Source of the DNA: Pseudomonas mandelii
GTDB lineage: Bacteria > Pseudomonadota > Gammaproteobacteria > Pseudomonadales > Pseudomonadaceae
Direction of reading: 5' to 3'
Assembly: GCF_900106065.1 (NCBI RefSeq)
Contig: NZ_LT629796.1
Coordinates: 372,001-436,000 of the forward strand
Length of the DNA stretch: 64,000 bases
Shown here: positions 38,199 through 44,043 of the stretch, in pieces
How the letters are laid out: each line of letters begins with the position of its first letter
Position numbering within the stretch: the stretch's first letter is position 1
Program-made: the position numbers and the translations under genes
The notes under the pieces: model-generated
Databases searched by the model: none
Seen by the model: the letters and a program-made list of their open reading frames with translations, nothing else
Told to the model about the DNA's origin: nothing

Positions 38199-38608
38199 AA
38201 ATCGATCTTGCCGCGCCCGGCCTTGATGCTGCCGCGCTTGGTCTTGGATTCCAGCCGACGCTTCTTCGAACCGAGGGTCGGCTTGGTCGGGCGGCGTTTC
38301 TTCTCGACTTTGGTGGCGCTGAGAATCAACTCGACCAGCCGCTCCAGCGCATCGGCGCGATTGGCTTCCTGCGTGCGGTATTGCTGGGCCTTGATAATCA
38401 ACACGCCATCGCTGGTGATGCGACTGTCACGCAGCGCCAGCAGCCGTTCCTTGTAGAACTCGGGCAAGGACGAGGCCGGAATGTCGAAGCGCAGGTGCAT
38501 GGCGCTGGAGACCTTATTGACGTTCTGCCCACCGGCGCCTTGCGCGCGGATGGCGGTCAACTCGATCTCGGCATCCGGCAGATGCACATTGTTGGAAATC
38601 ACCAGCAT
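38195..38608 (-). CDS. arfB: Alternative ribosome-rescue factor ArfB (YaeJ)
   Basis: A 137-residue peptidyl-tRNA hydrolase that frees stalled ribosomes without tmRNA. The catalytic GGQ is at residues 26-28 in [17 protein letters not shown]. The basic C-terminal tail ([20 protein letters not shown]) enters the mRNA tunnel in known structures. Length matches E. coli ArfB (140). The ATG at 38608 starts the conserved domain; the open frame upstream passes through a REP element and is not coding. Confidence 0.94.
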
Positions 38609-38669
38609 GGAAAAGCGTCCGTATTCAGAACGCGCAGGATACCGCGAATGAACTGAAAGCATGCGGTCC

Positions 38670-38763
38670 CTGTAGGAGCGAGGCTTGCCCGCGATAGCAG
38701 TGTTGTCAGTCGACATCTTTGTTGCCTGACACGACCCCATCGCGAGCAGGCTCACTCCTACAC
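38670..38763. repeat. REPIN: two inverted REP halves with a conserved spacer
   Basis: TGTAGGAGCGAGGCTTGCCC (38671 on) faces CGCGAGCAGGCTCACTCCTA (38751-38760 region). The spacer, with GTCGACATCTTTGTTGCCTG, is nearly the same as in the element at 44261, so this is one family of mobile REP doublets. Confidence 0.85.
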
Positions 38764-38787
38764 GGGGGTTGTGTGAAGCCTGAAAAT

Positions 38788-38820
38788 GACAAACCCGGCA
38801 CATGGCCGGGTTTGTTGTTT
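38788..38820. terminator. Terminator between arfB and the aroP-like gene
   Basis: Arms AAACCCGGC (38791-38799) and GCCGGGTTT (38805-38813) with a 5-nt loop lie 20 bp after the permease stop on the minus strand. The T-run is modest on both sides. Confidence 0.65.
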
Positions 38821-38833
38821 CTGCGAGCTGCGC

Positions 38834-40249
38834 TTACTTCGCGTTTGCAGCCTGCAACGCATGCTGAGCGCTGCGCTTGTTCTTGATCCCGTAGCACACC
38901 CACATGAACGCGACCCAAACCGGAATCGCATACACCGAGATCTGGATGCCCGGGATCAACAGCATTACGCCGAGAATGAACACCACGAACGCCAGGCAGA
39001 CGTAGTTCCCGTATGGGTACCACAGGGCTTTGAATAGCGGCGTCTGCTTGGTCTTGTCCATGTGCTGGCGGAACTTGAAATGCGAGAAGCTGATCATCGC
39101 CCAGTTGATCACCAGGGTGGCAACCACCAGCGACATCAGCAGTTCCAGCGCGTTTTGCGGGATCAGGTAGTTCAGCAACACCGCAATCAACGTCACCGCC
39201 GCCGAAGCGAGGATCGAACGCACCGGCACGCCGCGCTTGTCGATTTTCGCCAAGGCTTTCGGCGCATCGCCCTGCTCGGCCATGCCCAGCAGCATCCGGC
39301 TGTTGCAGTAAGTGCCGCTGTTGTACACCGACAGCGCCGCCGTCAGGACTACGAAGTTGAGGATGTGTGCGGCGGTGTCGCTGCCAAGCATCGAGAACAC
39401 TTGCACGAACGGGCTGCCGCTGTAGGAATCACCCGACGCATTCAGGGTCGCCAACAGGCTGTCCCATGGCGTCAGCGACAGCAGGATGACCAGCGCACCG
39501 ATGTAGAAAATCAGGATCCGGTAGATCACCTGGTTGATGGCTTTCGGGATCACGGTTTTCGGCTTGTCGGCTTCTGCTGCGGTGAAACCGAGCATTTCCA
39601 GGCCGCCGAAGGAGAACATGATGATCGCCATGGCCATCACCAGGCCGCTAACCCCGTTCGGGAAGAAACCGCCGTGGGCCCACAGGTTGGTCACCGAGGC
39701 TTGCGGGCCGCCGTGGCCGCTGACCAGCAGGTAGCTGCCGAGCGCGATCATGCCGACAATCGCCACGACCTTGATGATCGCGAACCAGAACTCGGCCTCG
39801 CCAAAGACTTTGACGTTGGCCAGGTTGATCAGGTTGATCAGGACGAAGAAGCCGGCGGCCGAGACCCAGGTCGGAATGTGTGGCGCCCAGTAGTGGATGT
39901 ATTTGCCGACCGCAGTCAGCTCCGACATGCCCACCAGGATGTACAGGATCCAGCAGTTCCAGCCCGACAGGAAGCCGGCGAACCCGCCCCAGTATTTATG
40001 GGCGAAGTGGCTGAAGGAACCCGCCACAGGCTCTTCGACAATCATTTCGCCGAGCTGGCGCATGATCATGAAGGCAATGAAGCCGCAGATGGCGTAGCCG
40101 AGGATCATCGACGGGCCGGCAGATTTCAGTACACCGGCCGAGCCCAGGAACAGCCCGGTACCGATCGCGCCACCGAGGGCGATCAGTTGAATATGGCGAT
40201 TTTTCAGGCCGCGTTTCAGCTCGCCTGAATGCGAGTTTTGTCCACTCAT
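38834..40249 (-). CDS. Amino acid permease, AroP type (APC superfamily)
   Basis: A 471-residue amino acid:proton symporter with 12 predicted helices. LIALGGAIGTGLFLGSAG is the helix 1 signature of the AroP/PheP/GabP family, GEMIVEEPVAGSFSHFAHKY follows, and TAALSVYNSGTYCNSRML lies in helix 8. Aromatic amino acids are the likeliest substrates, but related members take up proline, alanine or GABA, so the symbol is not assigned. The ATG at 40249 (MSGQNSHSGELKRGL) is the family start. It is followed by a terminator-like hairpin. Confidence 0.88.
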   Translation of the reverse strand: MSGQNSHSGELKRGLKNRHIQLIALGGAIGTGLFLGSAGVLKSAGPSMILGYAICGFIAFMIMRQLGEMIVEEPVAGSFSHFAHKYWGGFAGFLSGWNCWILYILVGMSELTAVGKYIHYWAPHIPTWVSAAGFFVLINLINLANVKVFGEAEFWFAIIKVVAIVGMIALGSYLLVSGHGGPQASVTNLWAHGGFFPNGVSGLVMAMAIIMFSFGGLEMLGFTAAEADKPKTVIPKAINQVIYRILIFYIGALVILLSLTPWDSLLATLNASGDSYSGSPFVQVFSMLGSDTAAHILNFVVLTAALSVYNSGTYCNSRMLLGMAEQGDAPKALAKIDKRGVPVRSILASAAVTLIAVLLNYLIPQNALELLMSLVVATLVINWAMISFSHFKFRQHMDKTKQTPLFKALWYPYGNYVCLAFVVFILGVMLLIPGIQISVYAIPVWVAFMWVCYGIKNKRSAQHALQAANAK

Positions 40250-40540
40250 GAAAAGGGTCTCACGCAAGGTTTGATGATGTTCGTTAGACGTTGCTGCTCG
40301 GTTGCGATTTCAAGCAGCGCCGATCAAACCCCAGCGAAGGCAAAAGGAGTTCAGCGTTTTTACAACGGTCATGCGTCACCTGTTTGTTTTTATCTGTGAC
40401 GAAATCGAACCCGACACGCTTGTGGCGCGGCGGAGTGAACAAGGCGGATAGCCTTGAGGTTTGCGCAGATGCGCAGGAGGTCACAGTTAAAACGCGGCGC
40501 ATTGTACACCTGTAACCCCCTGCTGCCAGACACCGCTGGA

Positions 40541-40687
40541 TCAGCGCGTCGTTTGCCGGGATTGCCTGTGTCCGCCCCGAGGGTCTCGGGCGGCTGCAAA
40601 AACTGGGTCAGACCTTTGCGGGTCTTCGACGGGGACGACGAACAAATCGCCCTCGGGGGAGAAGTGGAGATGAGTCACGGCGTTCAT
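40541..40687 (-). CDS. Possible small protein (48 aa), strong ribosome binding site
   Basis: A 48-codon frame beginning MNAVTHLHFSPEGDLFVVPV. AAGGAGG ends 4-5 nt before the ATG, and codon third positions are GC-rich as in true genes. It overlaps by ATGA with a preceding minus-strand frame that ends in HNKKEAQ, suggesting translational coupling. The C-terminal half (RGGHRQSRQTTR) is basic and unremarkable. It lies 291 bp upstream of the permease gene on the same strand. No family was recognised; it could be a remnant. Confidence 0.4.
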   Translation of the reverse strand: MNAVTHLHFSPEGDLFVVPVEDPQRSDPVFAAARDPRGGHRQSRQTTR

Positions 40688-40734
40688 TGCGCCTCCTTCT
40701 TGTTATGCACCTGCACGACAGGCATGGAGCGCAT
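40684..40734 (-). other. Upstream overlapping short frame (16 codons or more)
   Basis: Reads MRSMPVVQVHNKKEAQ and stops on TGA within the ATG of the 48-codon frame. The same frame stays open further upstream to about 40875 (for example ALARLFQRRWQGEMRSM) without an ATG, so this may be the tail of a decayed gene or a leader frame. Confidence 0.3.
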
Positions 40735-41047
40735 CTCACCCTGCCAGCGCCGTTGAAACAAGCGAGCCAGAGCCTTGCAGGGTGGTTGAGCGACGTGTTT
40801 GCGGAAGGATTTCCTTACACACCTTCCGTGGACGTCAATCCAAGGGCTCAGAGGCGATAATCCGTCAGCTTTTCTTTACAAGCCGTAACGCAGACTTTCC
40901 AAATCAGATCAATCCGTAGGACGACTGCAAATTGACGTTAGGAAGCTTCCTAAGGAAAAGGTCGAGTTAGTTTTTTGTTTTTAATCGATAAACAGGCCCT
41001 GATAAAACAGAATAAAAAGTTCAAATAAATCTAATTTGATTATTTTT
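40735..41047. other. Non-coding, partly AT-rich interval
   Basis: Apart from the minus-strand open frame reaching about 40875, no gene is seen. From about 40965 to 41065 base composition turns strongly AT-rich, with runs such as TTTTTTG and AATAAAAAG, unlike the rest of the window. This forms the upstream region of the micropeptide promoter. Confidence 0.6.
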
Positions 41048-41076
41048 TTGCAATTTAAAAAGCTCTGGACTAGGTT
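41048..41076 (+). promoter_or_regulatory. Predicted sigma-70 promoter of the micropeptide/M29 operon
   Basis: TTGCAA (41048-41053), a 17-bp spacer and TAGGTT (41071-41076) lie at the end of the AT-rich tract, which could act as an UP element or H-NS-like target. The start would be near 41083. Confidence 0.45.
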
Positions 41077-41081
41077 TTCAG

Positions 41082-41113
41082 CGACTTGCCGAGACGCATC
41101 GACCGGCAAGTTG
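41082..41113 (+). promoter_or_regulatory. Stem-loop in the micropeptide 5' UTR
   Basis: ACTTGCCG (41084-41091) pairs with CGGCAAGT (41104-41111), extended by a G-U and a C-G pair, with a 12-nt loop. It lies just after the predicted transcription start and about 70 nt before the peptide ATG; it may stabilise or control the mRNA. Confidence 0.5.
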
Positions 41114-41180
41114 GCACGTTATTCAATGACTGAAAAACGCGCCGCTGCACTTACCGAAAAAGTCATCTAGGAGATTCACA

Positions 41181-41318
41181 ATGCAAGCACTTGAAAAAGA
41201 CTTGGAAACTGAACTGCAACTGGACGATTGGTTTGAAGCACCGACCCATGAAGCCGCCGTTGAAATGATGCAAGCCGATGCGGTTGTTCCGTTCGGCACG
41301 GCGATGTGGCCTCTGTAA
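41181..41318 (+). CDS. 45-residue acidic micropeptide, candidate precursor or leader peptide
   Basis: Reads MQALEKDLETELQLDDWFEA, then PTHEAAVEMMQADAVV, ending PFGTAMWPL. There are ten acidic residues and one Lys, so residues 1-33 are strongly acidic and helix-prone. The last 11 residues (V35-L45) are hydrophobic with Pro, Gly and Trp, the leader/core layout of a RiPP precursor. AGGAG lies 8 nt before the ATG. A terminator-like hairpin follows 10 nt after the stop, then a gene for an M29-type metallopeptidase. No known family was recognised. Alternatives are a regulatory leader peptide or a small protein subunit of the neighbouring enzyme. Confidence 0.65.
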   Translation: MQALEKDLETELQLDDWFEAPTHEAAVEMMQADAVVPFGTAMWPL

Positions 41319-41327
41319 GGCCCACCC

Positions 41328-41366
41328 GGCAGGCACGATCCGGCCGGTTGTGCCTGCCACTTTTTC
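41328..41366 (+). terminator. Terminator-like hairpin between micropeptide and M29 genes
   Basis: Perfect 9-bp arms GGCAGGCAC (41328-41336) and GTGCCTGCC (41350-41358), with an inner CCGGCCGG, are followed by ACTTTTTC. It is likely a partial terminator giving more peptide transcript than enzyme transcript. Confidence 0.7.
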
Positions 41367-41388
41367 TCGGTTTGTCAGGGAGGACTAC

Positions 41389-42354
41389 ATGGATAAGCAA
41401 CGCGCCATTTCGCATTTCCTTTACTACCTCGAACACCACCCTGCCGTTGCCGGCATCAACCCGGCAAAGGTCTTGCTCGGCCACACCGCTGATTACGAGG
41501 CACTGACCGGCGCCATCGCCGAACAGGCCAGTGACAGCCAGCCCTTCCGTTTCAGCACCATGCGCCTGGACATCGAGCCGACAGAAAAGCTGGCCCAGGC
41601 GATTGCCGAAAGCGATCTGTACATTTTCTTCTACGACTCTTCCACCCTGCCCAATCCTCGCCCCGACGGCCCGGAGTTTGTCCGTGCGCTGCAAGGTGTA
41701 ATGGCCGAGAACTGGAAGAAGTCGCTGCTGTTCAAGGATTACGGCGATTACTTCTACGACACTTTCAGCGTCACTCCGCAGCGCATAGCGGGTTTGAACA
41801 GCCACTTGATCCAGCGCATGTCTCACGCGACAACGTTGAGTTTCAAAGATGATCACGGCTCGTGGTTTGAAACACCGCTGAACAGCATCAAGAAGTGGAC
41901 CGACATCAACGGCATCGGCAACTTTGATTTGGCCCCCGGTGAAATTGCCACGCACAGCGAAGCGATCAACGGCCGGGTGAAGTTCATGGGGACCTTCCTC
42001 AGCACCATTCCGTTTGCCCGCAAGTACGGGGTGCTGGATTCGCCGCTGGAGTTGTGGATCGAGAACTCGACCATCCACAAGATCGCCACGGAAGTGCCGG
42101 GACTGGAACATGATTTCAACAAGTACCTGGAGGCCAATCCGTCGAACCGGCGCATTGAGGAATTGGGAATCGGCACCAATGAAGGCGTGAAGGCGCTGTA
42201 TGCCCGAAATGCCGGGTTCGAGGAGCGCCATTGCGGGCTGCATCTGGGGTTGGGTGGTGGGGCCAAGGGCAGCCATCATCTGGACCTGATCTTCTCCAGC
42301 GGCGTGTTGGCGCTGGATGATGAGCCGGTGTTTGATGGGCGGTTTGTTTTCTAA
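41389..42354 (+). CDS. M29 (aminopeptidase T/AmpS)-like metallopeptidase
   Basis: A 321-residue cytoplasmic protein whose C-terminal half carries the metal-site motifs of family M29 aminopeptidases. These are APGEIATHSEAINGRVKF (Glu185), IEELGIGTNEGV (Glu258), FEERHCGLHLGLG (Glu278, His285) and GSHHLDLIF (His297, Asp299), then a C-terminal VFDGRFVF strand. True M29 enzymes have about 400 residues; here the N-terminal domain is shorter (about 175 residues) and not recognisable. GGAGG lies 6 nt before the ATG. It is co-directional with the micropeptide 70 bp upstream, so processing of that peptide is a fair inference. It could also be a general leucyl aminopeptidase or a non-peptidase relative. 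Confidence 0.78.
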   Translation: MDKQRAISHFLYYLEHHPAVAGINPAKVLLGHTADYEALTGAIAEQASDSQPFRFSTMRLDIEPTEKLAQAIAESDLYIFFYDSSTLPNPRPDGPEFVRALQGVMAENWKKSLLFKDYGDYFYDTFSVTPQRIAGLNSHLIQRMSHATTLSFKDDHGSWFETPLNSIKKWTDINGIGNFDLAPGEIATHSEAINGRVKFMGTFLSTIPFARKYGVLDSPLELWIENSTIHKIATEVPGLEHDFNKYLEANPSNRRIEELGIGTNEGVKALYARNAGFEERHCGLHLGLGGGAKGSHHLDLIFSSGVLALDDEPVFDGRFVF

Positions 42355-42366
42355 GCAACATGAACC

Positions 42367-42500
42367 CTGTGGCGAGGGAGCTTGCTCCCGTTCGACTGCG
42401 CAGCAGTCGCAAAACCTGCCGCCACGATTTGCCTGACACACCGGGGTAGAGGGTTTGGGGCCGCTTCGCGACCCAACGGGAGCAAGCTTCCTCGCCACAG
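42367..42500. repeat. REPIN of the GTGGCGAGGGAGCTTGCTCC family
   Basis: CTGTGGCGAGGGAGCTTGCT (42367 on) and the inverted AGCAAGCTTCCTCGCCACAG (42481-42500) flank a spacer with internal dyads (GACTGCGCAGCAGTC). A close relative is at 49928. Confidence 0.88.
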
Positions 42501-42536
42501 GTTTATCTGCATTCTGAAGACCGGCTTTTGCCAGAC

Positions 42537-42572
42537 CAAAAAAAACGCCAACCCGAGGGTTGGCGTTTTTTA
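42537..42572. terminator. Bidirectional terminator between the M29 gene and rluB
   Basis: A 14-bp stem AAAAACGCCAACCC (42541-42554) and GGGTTGGCGTTTTT (42557-42570). The T-runs work on both strands for the convergent genes. Confidence 0.88.
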
Positions 42573-42587
42573 TTCGGTGCTTACCGA

Positions 42588-43886
42588 TTACTCAGGCTTG
42601 CGACGACCAAAGCCCGGACGCTGGCCCGAACCGGCTGGCGCACCACGGCGTTTGCCTGATGGCGCATCCTTGTCGACCAGAACGATGCCTGGGCGCTTCT
42701 TCGCCGGTGCCTTGGCCGGGCGCTTGGTGTCGGAAGGACGGTCTGCCACTGGCGTACCGCGACCCGACTCACCACGAGACTCGCCACGACCGGCTGGAGC
42801 ACCGCGATCACTGCGACCACCACTTGGAGCACCACGGCCTTCGCCACGTTCAGTGCGACCGTTGGCCGGACGCGGCGTGCGTGGACCGCGCTCGCCATCA
42901 GCGCGTGGCGCTGCTGGTTTGCGGGCTGGACGCTCGCCTTCGATTTGCGGTTCACGGGAGTCACGCGGCGTAGCAGCGGTCTGGTTGCCGATGGCTGGAC
43001 GCAACGAACGCACGCGCTCGGTCTTGCCCATTGGACGCGACGATTTACGCTGCATGCGGTCGAGCTTGTCTTTGCTCTTGGCGTTCATTTGCGGCATGGC
43101 CACTGGGGTCAGGCCGACTTCAGCACTCAGAATGTCGACTTCGTACTGGCTCATTTCGCGCCAGCGGCCCATCGGCAGGTCGGAGTTGAGGAACACCGGA
43201 CCGAAACGCACGCGCTTCAGACGGCTGACCACCAGGCCCTGGGATTCCCACAGACGACGAACTTCGCGGTTGCGACCTTCCATCACCACGCAGTGGTACC
43301 AATGGTTGAAACCTTCGCCACCAGGTGCTTGCTTGATGTCGGTGAACTTGGCCGGGCCGTCTTCGAGGACGACGCCTGCCTTTAGACGCTCGATCATTTC
43401 GTCATCGACTTCACCACGGACACGTACCGCGTATTCACGGTCCATTTCGTAGGACGGGTGCATCAGGCGGTTGGCCAGCTCACCGTCGGTGGTGAACATC
43501 AGCAGGCCGGTGGTGTTGATGTCCAGGCGACCGATGTTGATCCAGCGACCTTCTTTCGGGCGCGGCATCTTGTCGAAAACGGTCGGACGGCCTTCCGGAT
43601 CAAGGCGAGTGCAGATTTCACCGTCGGGCTTGTTGTACATGATCACGCGGCGTACCGACTCGGCGGCTTCTTCGCGCTTGATCACCTTGCCATCAATGGT
43701 GATGGCGTCGTGCATGTCGACGCGCTGCCCAAGGGTGGCGTCTTTGCCATTGACCTTGATGCGGCCGTGGCTGATCCAGGCTTCCACGTCACGGCGCGAG
43801 CCGACGCCGATACGGGCGAGGACTTTCTGCAGTTTTTCGCCTGCTGGGCCGATTTCCTGGTCGTCTTTCTGGTCGTTGATACTCAT
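42588..43886 (-). CDS. rluB: 23S rRNA pseudouridine synthase RluB
   Basis: A 432-residue RsuA-family enzyme that makes pseudouridine 2605 in 23S rRNA (E. coli numbering). The S4 domain is at about residues 15-75 (LQKVLARIGVGSRRDVEAWI). The catalytic domain includes GRLDINTTGLLMFT with the catalytic Asp, and NREVRRLWESQG. From about residue 270 a low-complexity tail rich in Arg, Gly, Pro and Ser extends the protein, probably a disordered RNA-binding tail also seen in other Pseudomonas RluB. The ATG at 43886 starts the conserved part. Confidence 0.94.
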   Translation of the reverse strand: MSINDQKDDQEIGPAGEKLQKVLARIGVGSRRDVEAWISHGRIKVNGKDATLGQRVDMHDAITIDGKVIKREEAAESVRRVIMYNKPDGEICTRLDPEGRPTVFDKMPRPKEGRWINIGRLDINTTGLLMFTTDGELANRLMHPSYEMDREYAVRVRGEVDDEMIERLKAGVVLEDGPAKFTDIKQAPGGEGFNHWYHCVVMEGRNREVRRLWESQGLVVSRLKRVRFGPVFLNSDLPMGRWREMSQYEVDILSAEVGLTPVAMPQMNAKSKDKLDRMQRKSSRPMGKTERVRSLRPAIGNQTAATPRDSREPQIEGERPARKPAAPRADGERGPRTPRPANGRTERGEGRGAPSGGRSDRGAPAGRGESRGESGRGTPVADRPSDTKRPAKAPAKKRPGIVLVDKDAPSGKRRGAPAGSGQRPGFGRRKPE

Positions 43887-44043
43887 CTGGGCACCTCCCG
43901 GTGTGGTCTGTTCAGGCGGCCCTGAATTGAGCGTCCTGAAGCGATGTAAAACTGGGTACTTTGGCAAAGGGATCGCCAAAGGGTCGCGAATCATACGCTC
44001 ATGGAAGCGTTCGCGCATCAGAGACTAGCTGATGAATGGAGAC

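Follow-up and report, generated by a model that had tools for sequence, protein, structure and literature searches.

The stretch analysed here, in the following called the window, comprises 64,000 nucleotides of the Pseudomonas mandelii genome, which is available as a single contig of 7.04 Mb and whose near relatives are Pseudomonas (best 80 of 233 relatives). It carries two genes on the same strand, separated by 70 bp, which encode an acidic peptide of 45 residues and a metalloprotein of M29 fold (Table 1). An original prediction, made from the letters alone, had described the peptide with its hydrophobic V35-L45 end, its strong ribosome binding site (RBS) and a co-directional gene carrying six M29 metal residues; all of this proved correct. 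In the mechanical list of open reading frames (ORFs), the second frame begins at 41278 (358 aa), within the peptide gene. We prefer the ATG at 41389, because an RBS is present and close homologues have about 321 aa (120 of 151 homologues listed). The two genes form one functional unit that is retained and lost together, and the pair points to an uncharacterised peptide-modifying system.

Table 1. Features of the gene pair and its surroundings (window positions unless a locus is given)
Feature	Position	Strand	Basis or remark
Block ACTAGGTTTTCAGC, directly before the inverted repeat	41069-41082	+	Upstream alignment
Inverted repeat ACTTGCCG...CGGCAAGT, 5' region of the peptide gene	41084-41111	+	Sequence, upstream alignment
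RBS of the peptide gene, AGGAG	41169-41173	+	7 nt before ATG
Peptide gene, 45 codons (45 aa)	41181-41318	+	Sequence, ORF list, conservation
Intergenic hairpin, then ACTTTTTCTC; terminator/attenuator-like or mRNA-stabilising	41328-41358	+	Fold tests, compensatory changes
RBS of the M29-fold gene, GGGAGG	41378-41383	+	Sequence
Gene of the M29-fold, CgnB-like metalloprotein, 321 aa	41389-42354	+	Sequence, homologues, fold
Codon of metal ligand Glu185	41941-41943	+	Invariant 32/32; by order CgnB Glu161
Codon of metal ligand Glu258	42160-42162	+	Invariant 32/32; by order CgnB bridging Glu252
Codons of Glu278, His285, His297, Asp299 (E-x6-H-x11-H-x-D)	42220-42285	+	Invariant 32/32
Amino-acid permease (PF00324), flanking gene	38837-40267	Opposite to pair	Pfam
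S4/pseudouridine-synthase protein (PF01479, PF00849), flanking gene	42591-44018	Opposite to pair	Pfam
TPR-containing gene at ATALWA-type pairs	L176:10998-12434; L178:7788-9212 (-); L179:10996-12417		C-terminal part weakly glycosyltransferase-9-like

The 45-codon ORF is a genuine gene. A search with the peptide (E<=0.01) found it in 141 of 398 Pseudomonas genomes, and the ratio of non-synonymous to synonymous changes (pN/pS) is 0.060 over 36 codons (94 distinct alleles, 600 random pairs), which rules out a chance ORF. The two other frames of its strand contain stops in 94/94 and 93/94 alleles. The hydrophobic C-terminus, residues 35-45 (VVPFGTAMWPL), follows an acidic, leader-like part with conserved L14, W17 and M30. 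Taken separately, pN/pS is 0.050 for the last 12 codons, a figure favoured by the gathering of alleles with a core pattern, and 0.063 for the 24 codons ahead of the core, which is not. Core patterns likewise served to collect the peptide alleles for the hairpin and T-tract tests below and for a set of 61 distinct peptides, among which the fixed T and W are thus partly forced and the ...ATALWA type is left out; two loci (L150, from genome G397, and L154) are left out of the pN/pS set and the Pseudomonas hairpin and T-tract sets. The 61 peptides have net charges of -7 to -10. Endings are WPL, WPF, WPV, WPM, WPI, WP or WA. As the core is near-constant over genera, we suggest a conserved role in the cell rather than that of a fast-evolving antimicrobial under diversifying selection.

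The M29-fold gene was detected in 143 of the 398 Pseudomonas genomes (E<=0.001). Both genes are present in 140 and neither in 254, which bears out the proposed two-gene unit; the remaining four represent decay states. Two of them (G033, G198) lack the peptide and, of the M29-fold gene, retain only the final 29 and 21 residues, located between the permease and pseudouridine-synthase genes, and a third (G270) has an interrupted M29-fold fragment, again with no peptide. In G397 the peptide (near 9730-9864 of L150) survives beside scraps of the decayed partner gene, and is altered in its core from A34 to T and from V36 to M, positions unchanged in every other one of the 61 distinct peptides. A broken peptide frame beside an intact M29-fold gene, named beforehand as the observation that would speak against the unit, was not found. 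The peptide gene lies directly upstream of the M29-fold gene, at a distance of 63-93 nt, in 80/80 loci (best 80 of 233 relatives), and the genes are adjacent wherever the fetched DNA has sufficient flank. The location shows synteny: within 5 kb, 79 of 86 long-flank loci, those of other genera among them, have the permease gene, and 79 have the pseudouridine-synthase gene.

Outside Pseudomonas, the pair sits at unrelated sites with a clearly recognisable peptide, which is present in 25 of 26 loci; in the exception (G706) the gene lies 5 bases from the contig end. Genus labels of the G-numbered genomes are inferred from best named homologues, the only named loci being L028-L107, L158 and L159. 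A Burkholderia-type peptide (...DAVVPFGTALWPV) occurs in 11 of 150 sampled genomes of the family, with B. arboris and B. cenocepacia among the named ones; a Photorhabdus-type peptide (...QAIVPFGTALWP) is encoded between riboflavin-synthase-like and CFA-synthase-like genes; and a Xenorhabdus-type peptide (...KAVVPVGTAMWPI) belongs to a gene found in 9 of 30 genomes of the Xenorhabdus-type genus. A second peptide type (...SAVIPFATALWA) is present in G864 and, as an additional copy, in G949 and G1066, which hold two pairs, each M29-fold gene with its own peptide type. An Enterobacterales-type order search gave 2 positives among 197, both already in the set. A mobile or viral element was considered and dismissed: none of the 66 pattern matches in viral contigs is a relative, and just three plasmid records were found, all of them large Burkholderia replicons.

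The original prediction saw no other tailoring enzyme next to the pair. This is correct for the window, but the three ATALWA-type pairs in G864, G949 and G1066, from two sets of genomes, are adjoined by a TPR-containing gene whose products are 57% identical. The glycosyltransferase-9 match of this protein stays below the Pfam cut-off (12.4 and 13.8 bits vs 22) and is absent in the third protein; it hints that a product may be decorated. Near the G864 pair, a further gene has a 2OG-oxygenase match below the cut-off (24.2 vs 27) and is unlinked in other genomes. In a search of 16 chosen genomes for unlinked partners, the TPR protein had no match in the window genome (G000) or nine other Pseudomonas; of the ten Pseudomonas searched, G000 and G010 alone hold matches to the oxygenase-like protein, at 34% identity. 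Because of the match in G000, an unlinked oxygenase partner is possible.

An intergenic hairpin, together with the family assignment of homologues described below, goes beyond what had been noted originally. The intergenic fold has a median z of -2.58 (106 distinct regions) vs 0.14 for 61 coding controls, and compensatory changes occur at 5 of 14 pairs in 28 sequences, which were hand-chosen as alignable from 53 divergent hairpins. The window hairpin alone does not stand out (z -1.72). T-tract terminators were seen in 28 of 103 Pseudomonas loci by a strict test (shuffles 5/363) and in 41 of 103 by a wobble-tolerant one (shuffles 0/605); the hairpin is thus general, the terminator proper is not. 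In operons for ribosomally synthesized and post-translationally modified peptides (RiPPs), the precursor peptide is in excess over the enzyme, and the hairpin could yield more peptide than M29-fold protein.

A short ORF upstream of the M29-fold gene in the window and in Pseudomonas, with Trp-Pro near its stop and a hairpin with T-tract ahead of the next gene, would also suit a leader peptide that regulates this gene in cis through an attenuator hairpin. We consider this very improbable, as conservation spans the whole peptide and terminator-like sites are not in excess across the region (2 found vs 3.0 expected). In its plain form the proposal is rejected: among the eight Xenorhabdus-type loci with flanks, the peptide gene lies upstream in three and downstream in five. 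The partnership is kept though gene order changes, a reordering that a cis-acting leader would not tolerate.

In an alignment of 17 chosen Pseudomonas loci, AGGAGA is found at the peptide RBS in 17/17 upstream regions. The ACTAGGTTTTCAGC block with the inverted repeat is the most conserved upstream stretch, the CTTGC block being kept while the inner part varies. Positions 41069-41111 may be a promoter or start region with a 5' hairpin; the fold of 41080-41180 is weak on its own (z -1.70; 13 of 200 shuffles as good).

The second gene encodes a protein in which E185, E258, E278, H285, H297 and D299 are invariant in 32/32 aligned homologues; by order, the last four correspond to Glu274, His280, His291 and Asp293 of CgnB (numbering from the main text of PMC10070186). 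It matches the fold of CgnB and CgnE, and likewise the M29 fold with its dinuclear ligand set. PF26231.1 (CgnE/B) is pre-assigned to many homologues, for example P0003 with 80% identity, and homologues are widely labelled "leucyl aminopeptidase" (both among the 120 of 151 homologues listed). PF26231.1 is not assigned to P0001 and P0002, and a Pfam search with the window protein and five homologues did not yield this model. Sequence searches of the PDB with the window protein, P0096, A1, P0049 and L146 gave no relevant match. In the crocagin pathway of Chondromyces crocatus, according to the main text of PMC10070186, the precursor CgnA is bound by both CgnB and CgnE, neither of which showed aminopeptidase activity; CgnB is thought to act in ring closure and CgnC does the oxidation, CgnB alone giving no observable product without this oxygenase.

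The original prediction took the protein, as an M29 enzyme, for an aminopeptidase. With AmpT (2ayi), PepS (4icr) and AmpS (1zjc), it does share fold, as close matches, and dinuclear metal ligands, and a true M29-type aminopeptidase could be controlled by the peptide (as an inhibitor or propeptide-like regulator) or degrade it. We regard this as rather unlikely. The window protein has 321 aa vs 397-413 aa in the solved aminopeptidases, has its own peptide gene as partner, and has no match at E<=1 among the Pfam and NCBIfam families, M29 profile included, so that, judged by profile, it is not a member of family M29. The residue seven after His285, which we take to be the position of the catalytic Tyr in M29 peptidases, is variable (A in 17/32). 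Together with the CgnE/B assignment of homologues and the inactivity of CgnB and CgnE as aminopeptidases in the main text of PMC10070186, this tells against the claim, and the aminopeptidase label is probably a misnomer.

By Z, the closest solved fold is that of NicX (7cup), a 2,5-dihydroxypyridine dioxygenase of similar length. A NicX-type oxygenase might oxidise the Trp or another residue of the peptide, and no separate CgnC would then be needed; we find this improbable. NicX holds one Fe via His265, Ser302, His318 and Asp320 and acts on a small aromatic substrate, no peptide partner being reported in the part of PMC7910607 used here, whereas our protein has Glu258 at the position of NicX His265, a match judged by order alone, and retains all six dinuclear ligands.

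A second, more distant M29-fold group was also seen, at L146:9352-10557 (-) and in L147 and L148, with the motif ...GELGxGTN...ERxxGVHxGFGQHNQ... and no such peptide found nearby. The L146 gene lies near a DmpG-type aldolase gene, and the group perhaps consists of NicX-like ring-cleaving enzymes.

Two real, adjacent and co-inherited genes, the fold, the intact ligands and the lack of any other enzyme gene conserved alongside are what was computed; how the peptide might be bound, which reaction might follow, where cleavage would fall and what role the product would have, we infer. As in the CgnA/CgnB system (PF26231), a short precursor-like peptide with a Trp near its C-terminus accompanies an M29-fold protein that lacks the extra N-terminal part of the aminopeptidases and has six zinc ligands that agree in order and are similarly spaced. 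There are also differences. The window genome has only one copy of the M29-fold gene, with no metal-dead CgnE copy within 2.1 kb, and no CgnC, CgnD, CgnL or CgnI is linked; the peptide is acidic, has 45 aa and ends in W-P-x or W-A, whereas CgnA is basic, has 21 aa and ends in Y-W; and, unlike in the crocagin system, it is nearly invariant across genera. We therefore reject membership in a crocagin cluster, given the lack of a linked CgnE or CgnC, the lack of a Tyr-Trp end and the acidic peptide. In the biosynthesis of pyrroloquinoline quinone (PQQ) and mycofactocin, the C-terminal part of a small, strongly conserved precursor becomes the product, with radical-SAM and further enzymes needed. 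Our peptide resembles these precursors; such enzymes are not linked here.

Most likely, the pair works as a CgnA-CgnB partnership reduced to two genes. We give about an even chance to a minimal RiPP-like module in which a dedicated precursor peptide is modified by a CgnB-related metalloprotein; binding of the peptide by the protein, or action upon it, would fit the CgnB precedent (main text of PMC10070186). The acidic Trp-containing part (about residues 11-31) would serve as recognition leader, and the protein, presumably a monomer with an intact dinuclear metal site, would recognise the acidic stretch with L14, W17 and M30. Binding would bring VVPFGTAMWPL, the segment acted upon, to the metal centre, where hydrolysis or ring closure would take place around G39-W43, in line with what is proposed for CgnB in crocagin formation, and the product might have a conserved cofactor-, signal- or chelator-like role. 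In its furthest form, the M29-fold protein alone would turn VPFGTA(M/L)W into a conserved small product, be it a cofactor, a signal or a metal chelator, that serves many Pseudomonas and scattered other Proteobacteria, and in one type a further group would be attached by the third gene; this we put forward tentatively, and consider it unlikely.

Several observations weigh against the RiPP-like module. NicX and the aminopeptidases are closer in fold than CgnB and CgnE, neither of which was retrieved at E<=1 by searching the alignment profile A1 against PDB sequences. The window pair has no linked CgnC-type 2OG-Fe(II) oxygenase, its neighbours being a permease and a pseudouridine synthase, and no exporter or dedicated regulator is linked to the pair. 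The core is not absolutely fixed, since G202 has VVAFGT (P37 changed) beside an intact partner. In G236 and G326 (2 of the 140) the M29-fold match is split in two with an intact peptide, possibly through a frameshift or sequencing error. Finally, when peptide and protein were modelled as a fusion with AlphaFold2, the peptide came out unfolded and undocked, residues 1-64 having confidence values (pLDDT) below 50.

The failed docking counts equally against another proposal, namely that the peptide stays unprocessed and permanently bound, as a stable subunit or cofactor that shapes or gates the active site of a two-subunit metalloenzyme acting on another substrate. The leader is nearly as conserved as the C-terminus, the core scarcely varies between families, and the pair has no conserved protease, exporter or tailoring gene beside it, all of which would suit a subunit. 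Even so, we consider it unlikely, since a hairpin downstream of the peptide gene speaks for unequal rather than 1:1 expression, and since both the CgnB precedent and the TPR gene of one peptide type fit peptide modification better.

The crocagin paper mined single-copy CgnB/E homologues together with candidate precursors; its main text names no Pseudomonas, Burkholderia or Photorhabdus, and its supplement, outside this comparison, may list the peptide (PMC10070186). Our literature searches on the peptide motif and on the pairing returned nothing relevant. If the RiPP-like module is real, the CgnB family, so far studied in one alkaloid pathway, would be extended to a common pair (about one third of the 398 Pseudomonas genomes), and the role of the CgnB metal centre would become testable in a two-component system in harmless, easily grown hosts. 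A widespread "leucyl aminopeptidase" label would be corrected and an unannotated small gene revealed.

Both flanking genes are housekeeping-like, the pseudouridine-synthase neighbour being, we assume, RluB-like. An Rfam scan of window positions 38500-42700 gave six matches, all under the gathering scores of their families. Between the permease start and the pair, about 50 bp (40370-40420) are nearly unchanged among about 100 distinct aligned relatives, with 1.2-1.7% differences per site, no codon-like pattern and no Rfam match above the gathering score; this stretch may serve in regulating the permease gene. Directly 3' of the pair, at 42365-42505, a GGGAGCTTGCTCCC-like palindrome occurs twice in facing orientation, an arrangement that resembles a REP/REPIN element.
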